Shown: positions 35,420 through 40,147 of the stretch, in pieces | Numbering within the stretch: position 1 is the stretch's first letter | How the letters are laid out: each line of letters opens with the position of its first letter | Assembly (NCBI GenBank): GCA_040183005.1 | Contig: JAMPIW010000004.1 | Coordinates: 1 to 64,000, forward strand | Source: Gammaproteobacteria bacterium | Lineage (GTDB): Bacteria; Pseudomonadota; Gammaproteobacteria; Ga0077554; Ga007554 | DNA: 64,000 nt | Reading direction: 5' to 3' | Position numbers and translations under genes: made by a program | The notes under the pieces: generated by a model | The model's database searches: none | Seen by the model: the letters and a program-made list of their open reading frames with translations, nothing else | What the model was told of the DNA's origin: nothing

Positions 35420-36481
<1,062 letters not shown>

Positions 36482-36568
36482 GGCGTAGGGGTTGTCCCCG
36501 GAGTTGCCCGGACAGGGCATCCACACAGGGGGCTTCCCTGCGAGCCATTACCTGACAAGAGGCACGCC

Positions 36569-37639
36569 ATAAAACCCTTATTTTTACGAGGCCCCTCTCT
36601 AGCCACCCGTCTGGTTGTGTTTGTGTTTGCCTCGCTGATCATGATGACGGTGGATCACCGCCAGAATTATCTGGAAAGTGTGCGGACGGCATTGTCGGCG
36701 GTGATTTATCCGCTCTACTATGTCGTCAACCTACCGGTGTCTGCGGGGGGATGGTTGCAGGACAACTTTACCACGCGCAAATCCCTGATGGCGGAAAATA
36801 CCCGCCTGCACGCACAAGACCTCCTGCTCAAGGCGCAGGTGCAGAAGATGGCGGCGCTGGAGATGGAAAACATGCGCCTTCGCGAACTGCTGGGCGCCTC
36901 CCCCAAGGTGAGCGAACATGTGCTGGCAGCGGAGTTGCTGGCGGTGGATATTGACCCATACGCACGCAAGGTTGTGATCGACAAGGGTAGCCGCGATGGT
37001 GTCTATGAGGGGCAGCCGTTGATAGACGCCCGTGGCGTGATGGGGCAGGTCATTAAAGTTGGCCCGCTGTCCAGCACCGCTATGCTGATTACCGACACCA
37101 CCCACGCCCTGCCGGTGATGGTTACGCGTACCGGCCTGCGCACCATAGCAGCCGGTATGGGTGCGGCAGGGTTGCTCGATTTGCAGAATCTGCCCAGCAA
37201 TACCGATATCAAGCGGGGCGATTTACTTGTTACCTCTGGCCTGGATGGGCGTTTCCCGCCCAATTATCCGGTCGCGACGGTCACACTCGTGAAACAACAG
37301 CAGGGACAGTATTTTATCCAGGTGAGGGCCATGCCCAGCGCGCGTCTCGAACATAACCGGGAGGTATTGCTGGTGTGGCCACAGGCCGGGGGGCAGACGC
37401 CAGGGGGGGCGGTTGTTCAGAAACCGGTGGGCGCTGAACAGGAAAAACAGCCCCAAGCCACGCCCACACCCTCTGCGGCGCAAATCACGCCAGCCAAACC
37501 GGAGACGCCGGCAGGGGCAATTATTAAACCTGCTCCTGCTGTTTCACCTCCTGCGGCGGTGGCGCCTGCACCAACAGCGCCGCTCCCAAAACCAGCGGCA
37601 CCCGTATCCCCGCAATCGCCCTCGGACATCATTGAGTGA
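36569..37639 (+). CDS. mreC: rod shape-determining protein MreC, apparent ATA start
   Basis: Periplasmic scaffold of the elongasome: an N-terminal membrane helix (LVVFVFASLIMMTVDHR), a coiled coil (MAENTRLHAQDLLLKAQVQK) and two beta-barrel subdomains (DKGSRDGVYEGQPLIDARGV, SGLDGRFPPNYPVATV). The C-terminal 90 residues are an unusual Pro/Ala-rich tail. The expected family start (KPLFLRGPSLATRL) is encoded directly after an ATA at 36569, with AAGAGG six bases upstream, so ATA appears to be the initiator. The nearest standard codon, GTG at 36617, would remove 16 residues including part of the membrane helix. Confidence 0.88.
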   Translation: MKPLFLRGPSLATRLVVFVFASLIMMTVDHRQNYLESVRTALSAVIYPLYYVVNLPVSAGGWLQDNFTTRKSLMAENTRLHAQDLLLKAQVQKMAALEMENMRLRELLGASPKVSEHVLAAELLAVDIDPYARKVVIDKGSRDGVYEGQPLIDARGVMGQVIKVGPLSSTAMLITDTTHALPVMVTRTGLRTIAAGMGAAGLLDLQNLPSNTDIKRGDLLVTSGLDGRFPPNYPVATVTLVKQQQGQYFIQVRAMPSARLEHNREVLLVWPQAGGQTPGGAVVQKPVGAEQEKQPQATPTPSAAQITPAKPETPAGAIIKPAPAVSPPAAVAPAPTAPLPKPAAPVSPQSPSDIIE

Positions 37640-37647
37640 TCGGCACC

Positions 37648-38130
37648 ATGGATCGAACACAATCCCCCGTCAACGGCTGGTTCATTTTAATGACCCTGTT
37701 CGCCGCCTTTGCCCTGACCATCATTCCCTTGCCGACAGAAATCGAGGCGTTTCGTCCCGAATGGGTGGCGCTGGCGGTCACTTATTGGTGTTTGGCGCAA
37801 CCCCAGCGCGTCGGCGTGGGTGTGGCCTGGTTGCTGGGAATGATGCTCGATGCCGTGCAGGGGGTGCTGCTCGGCCAGCATGCGCTGGGCATGACACTTA
37901 TTGCCTATTTCGTTGTCAAATTCCATCAACGCATACGTGCCTACCCACTCTGGCAGCAACTCCTGATCGTGCTGATGCTGATTGTCCTATACAAATTACT
38001 GACGCTGTGGATTATGGGCATCCTCGGGCGGTCGCCAGACACCTGGCTGTACTGGTCGTCGGCATTGAGCAGCATGCTGTTGTGGCCCTTGCTGTCCTCC
38101 ATCCTGCGCAGCCGCAGCGAGACATCGTAG
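37648..38130 (+). CDS. mreD: rod shape-determining protein MreD
   Basis: A 160-residue integral membrane protein with about five hydrophobic helices (WFILMTLFAAFALTIIPL, PEWVALAVTYWCLAQPQRVG, GVAWLLGMMLDAVQGVLLGQ). The motif WLLGMMLDAVQG..LG is typical of MreD. The ATG at 37648 follows the mreC stop by 8 bp; a GTG at 37636 overlapping mreC is an alternative. It is the membrane partner of MreC. Confidence 0.92.
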   Translation: MDRTQSPVNGWFILMTLFAAFALTIIPLPTEIEAFRPEWVALAVTYWCLAQPQRVGVGVAWLLGMMLDAVQGVLLGQHALGMTLIAYFVVKFHQRIRAYPLWQQLLIVLMLIVLYKLLTLWIMGILGRSPDTWLYWSSALSSMLLWPLLSSILRSRSETS

Positions 38131-38164: not shown

Positions 38165-40147
38165 ATGACCAAGACCCACCTTAAAGATTATTTCCACGAA
38201 AGCGAGATGTTCAATACTCGCGTGATCGTGGCTATCGTTGTCATTCTGGTGTTGACGGGGGTGGTCATCGCGCGGCTGGTTTTTCTCCAGATCATAAATC
38301 ACGCGCATTACACCACGCTATCGCAGGAGAACCGCGTCACTCTTGTGCCTATCCCTCCGCCGCGCGGCATCATCTATGATCGCAACGGCATTGTGCTGGC
38401 ACAAAACTCACCCTCCTTCAGCCTGGAAATCACCCCGGACGAAGCTGGCGATATGGAGACCACGCTGCGCGAATTGGGTGAGCTGGTCGCACTCAGCGAA
38501 CGCGACCTCAAGCGCTTTCGCCGGGAGATCGCCCAGAAACGCCGTTTCGAGGCCGCCCCGTTGCGCTTTAATCTGACCGAGGAAGAAATGGCGCGCCTGG
38601 CCGTCAACCGTTACCGCTTTCCGGGCGTGGAGGTGGTGGCGCGTATGACGCGCGAGTACCCGCTGGGCAGTCTTGCCGTGCATGCCATCGGCTATGTGGG
38701 GCGCATCAACGAGGCTGAACTGAAAAATCTCGACACCAATTACAGCGGCACCACGCACATGGGCAAGCTGGGTGTTGAAAAGACCTACGAGGATATACTG
38801 CACGGCACCGTCGGCGTTGAGCAGGTCGAGACCACCGCACGGGGGCGCGCCCTGCGTGTGCTGGGGCGCACCCCACCCACCGCGGGCAAGAATCTTTATT
38901 TGACGATAGATATCAGGCTCCAGGCGGCGATTGAGGGCGTACTTGGCGACCGGCGCGGCGCTGTGGTGGCGATCGAACCCAAAACCGGCGAGGTGCTGGC
39001 CTTTGCCAGTACGCCGGGCTATGACCCCAACCTGTTCGTCAACGGCATTTCCTCGGAGGATTACAAGGCCCTGCAAACCTCGCTGGACAAGCCCATGATC
39101 AACCGCGCCCTGCAGGGCCAATATCCACCCGGCTCCACGGTCAAGCCTTTTTATGCCTTGGCGGGCCTGGAATACAATAAGGTGTCGGCCGATGACACGG
39201 TTACTTGTCGCGGCCATTTTCAGCTTCCGGGCGTCGCCCACCAATACCGCGACTGGAAAAAAGAGGGGCATGGCGTTATCAATCTCGAACATGCCGTCGA
39301 GCAGTCCTGCGACGTGTATTTCTATACGCTGGCACTCAAGCTGGGCATAGACAATATGGCCGAGTTCATGACACGTTTTGGCCTGGGCCACAAAACCGGC
39401 ATCGACCTCCCCGGCGAGATGGCGGGTGCAATGCCTTCGTCGGCCTGGAAGCGCAAAAGATATAATCAGCCTTGGTATGGCGGTGAAACCCTGATTGCGG
39501 GTATCGGACAGGGTTATGTGCTGACCACCCCCTTGCAACTGGCAACAATCACCGCCACGATGGCCAATCAGGGCGTGCAAATGAAGCCGCATATGCTGCA
39601 TGCGATTCAAGAACCCGGCAGTGCCACCATCACCGAGCAAAAGCCGCAGATGAACGTGCGGGTGCCTGTGGTCAACGAGGAAAACTGGCGCACCGCCGTC
39701 AACGCCATGGTGAGCGTTGTGCATGGAGCACGCGGCACGGCTTATGCCAGTATAGGGCGTACCGCCACCTATAAAATTGCCGGCAAAACGGGTACGGCAC
39801 AGGTGGCAGGGATTAAACAGGGCGCAAAATACAACGAAAGCCAAACCCCGGAGCGATTGCGCGACCACGCACTGTTCGTGGCCTTCGCCCCCGCCGAAGC
39901 CCCGCAGATCGCCATGGGCGTGATCGTGGAAAACGGTGGGCACGGCAGCAGCACGGCAGCGCCGGTGGCACGCATAGCGATGGACTATTACCTGAAGGAT
40001 TTGCTCGGCATGGAATCGGCAGCCAAGGCTCCAGAGGCCGAGACCAAGCCTGGTGGTGTTGCTCCCGTTGATGGGGCAAAAAAGATCGGACCAACGTCTT
40101 CTCCCGCCGCACCGGAGGCCTCTCAGGGGATTACTCAAGATGAGTGA
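38165..40147 (+). CDS. mrdA: penicillin-binding protein 2
   Basis: Class B transpeptidase of cell elongation, 660 residues. A membrane anchor (VIVAIVVILVLTGVVIARL) precedes the pedestal with PPPRGIIYDRNG. The transpeptidase domain has STVK in PPGSTVKPFYA, the SxN-equivalent SCD in EQSCDVYFYTLA, and KTG in AGKTGTAQVAG. The C-terminal tail (about 625-660) is Ala/Pro-rich. It follows mreD by 34 bp and precedes its partner rodA. Confidence 0.96.
   Translation: MTKTHLKDYFHESEMFNTRVIVAIVVILVLTGVVIARLVFLQIINHAHYTTLSQENRVTLVPIPPPRGIIYDRNGIVLAQNSPSFSLEITPDEAGDMETTLRELGELVALSERDLKRFRREIAQKRRFEAAPLRFNLTEEEMARLAVNRYRFPGVEVVARMTREYPLGSLAVHAIGYVGRINEAELKNLDTNYSGTTHMGKLGVEKTYEDILHGTVGVEQVETTARGRALRVLGRTPPTAGKNLYLTIDIRLQAAIEGVLGDRRGAVVAIEPKTGEVLAFASTPGYDPNLFVNGISSEDYKALQTSLDKPMINRALQGQYPPGSTVKPFYALAGLEYNKVSADDTVTCRGHFQLPGVAHQYRDWKKEGHGVINLEHAVEQSCDVYFYTLALKLGIDNMAEFMTRFGLGHKTGIDLPGEMAGAMPSSAWKRKRYNQPWYGGETLIAGIGQGYVLTTPLQLATITATMANQGVQMKPHMLHAIQEPGSATITEQKPQMNVRVPVVNEENWRTAVNAMVSVVHGARGTAYASIGRTATYKIAGKTGTAQVAGIKQGAKYNESQTPERLRDHALFVAFAPAEAPQIAMGVIVENGGHGSSTAAPVARIAMDYYLKDLLGMESAAKAPEAETKPGGVAPVDGAKKIGPTSSPAAPEASQGITQDE

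Follow-up and report, generated by a model that had tools for sequence, protein, structure and literature searches.

Rod-shaped bacteria build their cell wall with the help of mreC. In the window, the whole 64,000-nucleotide stretch of gammaproteobacterial DNA analysed here, this gene carries an ATA codon where its start codon is expected. Comparison across the class makes it likely that translation of mreC begins at a near-cognate AUH codon, that this start has been selectively kept in a large part of the Gammaproteobacteria, and that MreC synthesis is thereby low next to that of MreB. Here AUH stands for AUA, AUC or AUU, and ATG, GTG and TTG are called canonical. The features of the locus are listed in Table 1.

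Table 1. Features of the mreB-mreC-mreD region, in window coordinates.
Feature	Position	Strand	Remarks
mreB	35429..36481	+	ATG start, TAA stop; NF010539 and TIGR00904 above cut-off
mreB-mreC spacer	36482..36568	+	87 nt; mreC frame without ATG, GTG or TTG
Shine-Dalgarno AAGAGG	36557..36562	+	6 nt before ATA; duplex of -5.8 kcal/mol with the anti-SD core
Inferred mreC start codon ATA	36569..36571	+	
mreC CDS	36569..37639	+	356 codons and TGA stop; matches to TIGR00219 and PF04085
Codons of the conserved MreC N-terminus KPLFLRGPSLATRL	36572..36613	+	Residue 1 aligns with E. coli MreC (7eft)
GTG, first canonical in-frame codon	36617..36619	+	Start of the listed ORF; not likely the true start
mreD	37648..38130	+	ATG start; listed ORF from in-frame GTG 37636; named by place and sequence
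mrdA (PBP2)-like gene	38165..40147	+	ATG start; named by sequence and operon order

The product of the window gene scored above the cut-off of both profiles (206.1 bits against 92.75 for TIGR00219, and 139.4 against 28 for PF04085), and the gene sits between mreB and mreD. The codons for KPLFLRGPSL follow directly 3' of the ATA, and in the alignment with E. coli MreC, residue 1 of the predicted protein falls on Met1. The original prediction placed the start of mreC at this ATA, behind a well-spaced AAGAGG and with no ATG, GTG or TTG nearby upstream in frame. The motif was found at that distance. The 29 open codons of the mreC frame back to the mreB TAA (36479-36481), which stands in the same reading frame, contained no ATG, GTG, TTG, CTG, ATT or ATC and no further ATA. 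Downstream of the ATA, the first canonical in-frame codons are GTGs at 36617 and 36623; both fall in a hydrophobic stretch that we take for a membrane helix. A search for a structured RNA leader showed a folding energy that was not unusual (z -1.38) and no Rfam match at the gathering score.

Close relatives, which the original prediction had named as a check, agree with the position of the start. The mreC loci of the window's family were placed by tblastn, and the aligned codon was ATA in four, ATC in two and ATT in two of the eight genomes, the window's own included. MAG loci, several of them near-identical to the surveyed family genomes, showed ATA in seven, ATC in two and ATT in one at the same codon (10/10). 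The original prediction had also allowed for a sequencing error or a single change from ATG. ATA and ATG do differ by one base, and this rival reading also covers misassembly and a point change that arose lately in a single strain. This explanation is refuted by the relatives: all eight family genomes keep AUH at this codon, as do 131 of 202 others, and the probability left to it is negligible. Judged from these alignments, the AUH start can be put down neither to a sequence error nor to a mutation confined to this genome. Nor is it the local rarity for which the ATA had been taken, since AUH starts were read in those 131 genomes of the class outside the family.

The class search covered 370 genomes, of which 338 had an mreC match, 333 of them outside the window's family. 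The start was read in 202 of the 333, and the other 131 were mostly weaker matches. The read set comprised the 144 best matches, 31 genomes added through an E. coli MreC query, and 27 added through a distant MreC or as weaker matches. The third, more distant query was added because the first tallies leaned to window-like genomes; it moved the AUH count from 126/175 to 131/202. For starts off the aligned codon, a rule made the choice in the first set, and inspection by eye did so in the other two. The final tally was 131 AUH starts (58 ATC, 47 ATT, 26 ATA), 66 canonical starts (46 ATG, 16 GTG, 4 TTG) and five that were not called (L088, L128, L155, L214, L215), which remain in the denominators. 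L213 (G062) was left out, as its contig ends within about 200 bases. By family code, AUH starts occurred in 62 of 100 families, 57 of which had AUH only, and 36 families had canonical starts only. The AUH share was 113/144 among the best matches, 13/31 among the E. coli-query additions and 5/27 among the weaker ones, and it declines with growing distance from the window. Loci outside the main draw comprised 17 class loci, with 11 AUH and six canonical starts, and three further loci, all canonical. Most mreC matches in other classes of the phylum begin well within the protein.

Some loci showed variants of the start region. In L155 an ATG stands one codon past the aligned place, and its start may be a canonical one. 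In L128 (G363) the aligned start codon reads GTT and is preceded by GGAGG; the nearest upstream ATG, GTG or TTG is at least 28 codons off, and the start may be GUU. Two members of family f117 (L040/L043; G367, G123) have ATA as the apparent start and additional codons behind it (ATA GCC CCG GCC AAG), and two others (G302 and G223) have ATC three codons ahead of the aligned place. In family f143, four genomes have ATC and one has ATT.

ATA, ATC and ATT are exactly the codons of isoleucine. The aligned codon could therefore be an internal conserved isoleucine, with translation coming from upstream through an unrecognised start, mreB read-through or frameshifting. The arrangement in the window would allow this, with mreB and mreC in one frame and the mreB TAA as the sole stop between them. 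In the first 175 genomes, however, the AUH codon lay exactly at the aligned place in 111 and a few codons upstream in 15, and 111 of these 126 genes had no in-frame ATG, GTG or TTG back to the stop. A canonical codon was present within 20 codons upstream in 13 of them and further off in two. Of the first 100 aligned AUH genes, 28 had an in-frame stop between one and five codons upstream, and the same aligned place was held by ATG in 23, TTG in two and GTG in two of the 175 genomes.

Start codons were also compared with the internal isoleucine codons of the same genes. The usage of ATA/ATC/ATT was 21/41/38 at the start and 48/365/148 at internal positions (p 4e-6). The mean Shine-Dalgarno duplex energy was -7.65 at AUH (n 113) and -2.14 at internal isoleucine codons (n 537; p 2e-49). 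Because the codon usage differs and the internal codons are without a Shine-Dalgarno, the AUH codon is best read as the initiator, and an internal isoleucine is very unlikely. Of the 111 aligned AUH genes, 88 had G at position -10, which places the Shine-Dalgarno at initiation distance. Within codons 2-13, Phe5 was present in 111/111 genes and Lys2 in 101, while third bases were free, a pattern that indicates constraint at the protein level. Taken together, these alignments strongly support the AUH codon as the start position. C was favoured directly before the AUH (70/111 at -2 and 61/111 at -1).

Gene callers make another choice. The window ORF is listed from the GTG at 36617, and the deposited P. 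aeruginosa mreC (CP123788.1) likewise begins at a GTG, 16 codons past the second ATC of its start region (TAG GAG CGG ATC ATC AAA CCG). A true start at such a GTG, 16-18 codons downstream, is nevertheless highly improbable. The segment that would be skipped is protein-like, conserved and aligned with E. coli MreC from residue 1. Of 126 genes, 124 had a stronger Shine-Dalgarno at the AUH than at the nearest downstream canonical codon (means -7.56 and -1.06). The shorter product would presumably lose its basic tail together with some of the hydrophobic stretch. Given an AUC start, the P. aeruginosa mreC appears to be annotated 16 codons late. PMC8137920 describes a construct MreCPa(97-258). With the 6zm0 chain taken as this construct, it corresponds to residues 113-274 counted from the second ATC, again an offset of 16. 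These cases show that mreC can be misannotated, in the P. aeruginosa record and in the equally shifted construct numbering. A full-length MreC construct that followed the deposited numbering would miss the N-terminal tail, and start prediction confined to three codons is blind to AUH starts.

The mreC start is ATG in E. coli, Klebsiella, Salmonella, Proteus and Aeromonas and GTG in A. baumannii. Legionella adelaidensis mreC has a longer N-terminus and GTG as annotated. Some records were unusual in themselves. CP123788.1, in which the P. aeruginosa mreC start was read (L201:219-1131), is a 1131-base 'plasmid' record that resembles a chromosomal mreB-mreC fragment, and chromosome-sized records of 3.7-5.4 Mb (L203, L206 and others, from Aeromonas, Proteus, E. 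coli, Acinetobacter and Klebsiella) were filed as plasmids.

AUH and canonical mreC starts differ in their Shine-Dalgarno. The mean duplex energy was -7.64 for AUH starts (n 131) and -3.46 for canonical starts (n 66; p 2e-14). The difference persisted between family means (62 vs 40; p 1.5e-8) and when only aligned positions of the first 175 genomes were used (p 6e-9), and three alternative anti-SD cores agreed. For mreB the Shine-Dalgarno averaged -4.08 (65 loci). Three families contained both kinds of start: f30 fits the trend, and in f105 and f116 the Shine-Dalgarno of the ATG gene was equal or stronger. Strong Shine-Dalgarno sequences were also found before some canonical genes (L338 -10.5, L339 -9.6, L258 -8.4).

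A rapid tree was built from 72 MreC proteins (49 AUH, 23 canonical), with several long branches on which placements are unsure. The start labels changed at least 10 times on the tree compared with a mean of 19.7 after shuffling, and none of 500 shuffles was as low. AUH starts stood on either side of the midpoint root, a root that serves for drawing only. A clade of 11 rows with E. coli, Proteus and Aeromonas was entirely canonical (SH-aLRT 96), and its duplex energies ranged from 0.4 to -5.9. The tree-based pair test of the link between start and Shine-Dalgarno had one usable independent pair on starred branches, and this link may rest on few lineages and on shared descent. The Shine-Dalgarno of the canonical lineages, E. 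coli and its relatives included, is mostly weak, as if the same low rate had been reached differently.

The neighbouring genes did not share the unusual start. mreB had a canonical start close to its conserved N-terminus in 65 of 65 placed loci (62 ATG and 3 TTG; a few genomes counted twice). For mreD, a canonical codon lay within 12 codons of the aligned start in 38 of 38 placed loci, which is a loose test. As these loci indicate, the AUH start is a property of mreC and is absent from mreB and mreD.

The candidate that the feature is infC proper was rejected, because the product is MreC and infC lies elsewhere in the genome (G000:C7). That infC (G000:C7:1349941-1350444, L168) has an ATC start one codon past an in-frame TAG that follows GGAGGG, and it is the second AUH start seen in the window's genome. 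In the window's family, infC starts with ATC in 7 of 7 loci. Among 28 infC loci of the class, 27 had an in-frame ATH ahead of the conserved part, and 24 had no ATG, GTG or TTG in the open stretch.

infC is the classic gene with a non-AUG start, and it itself serves translation. It encodes IF3 from an AUU or AUC start and, like mreC, has a conserved AUH codon behind a Shine-Dalgarno. By sequence, the window mreC would belong to the same type: its ATA is the sole in-frame start near the N-terminus, the AUH is conserved and the Shine-Dalgarno is properly spaced. The two genes differ in that the product of infC regulates its own gene, whereas MreC is not an initiation factor. They also differ in the use of ATA, which makes up 26 of the 131 AUH starts of mreC and was never the nearest ATH in the 28 infC loci.

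The pcnB gene of E. coli starts with AUU and, like mreC, is a gene outside translation with a near-cognate start. E. coli mreC encodes the same protein from the same residue and at the same place in the operon as the window mreC; unlike it, it has an ATG start and a weak Shine-Dalgarno (-3.0). According to PMC5472188, the bacterial genes known to have conserved a start codon that is not AUG, GUG or UUG are few in number. The paper reports experiments showing that Streptomyces sigR starts with GTC and is repressed by IF3. On that account, sigR resembles mreC in having a conserved non-canonical start, in lying outside the translation machinery and in being misannotated in genomes. The GTC of sigR belongs to one genus and has experimental support, whereas the AUH of mreC extends over many families and is known from sequence evidence. 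Among the open-access PMC matches listed, none described mreC as starting with a non-AUG codon; the start may be known elsewhere.

We propose that the AUH start works as follows. The strong Shine-Dalgarno would recruit 30S subunits to the mreC start. The fMet-tRNA would pair with the A and U of the AUH codon and leave the third base unpaired; this base varies between A, C and U across the mreC genes. IF3 would then reject most of the AUH initiation complexes. The outcome would be a low rate of MreC synthesis from the same operon mRNA that gives MreB from AUG. We infer this low dosage from the codon and its Shine-Dalgarno, and the AUH start probably serves to keep MreC scarce.

The AUH start might instead be a regulatory gate and not a fixed brake, so that MreC output tracks the ratio of IF3 to ribosomes and couples wall elongation to the state of translation. 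PMC5472188 describes repression of near-cognate starts by IF3 in infC of E. coli and sigR of Streptomyces. The infC of the window's family also starts with ATC. AUH has moreover persisted, whereas for a fixed low rate an AUG behind a weaker Shine-Dalgarno would presumably suffice. On the other side, E. coli and others use ATG, and canonical starts were found in 66 of 202 genomes. We regard such a gate as possible but rather unlikely, and likely the better account is the low, selectively kept near-cognate start.

The finding concerns a core cell-shape gene with an AUH start in 62 of 100 sampled families, which makes the reason for this start testable, whether it is the MreC:MreB dosage or IF3 control. 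Only tentatively do we suggest that, in a large part of the Gammaproteobacteria, MreC, the scaffold of the Rod complex, may be under IF3 control through its conserved AUH start, which would hard-wire the initiation machinery to wall elongation and would be absent in E. coli and its relatives. If true, the absence of an IF3-MreC link from E. coli would explain why it has gone unnoticed in that model.
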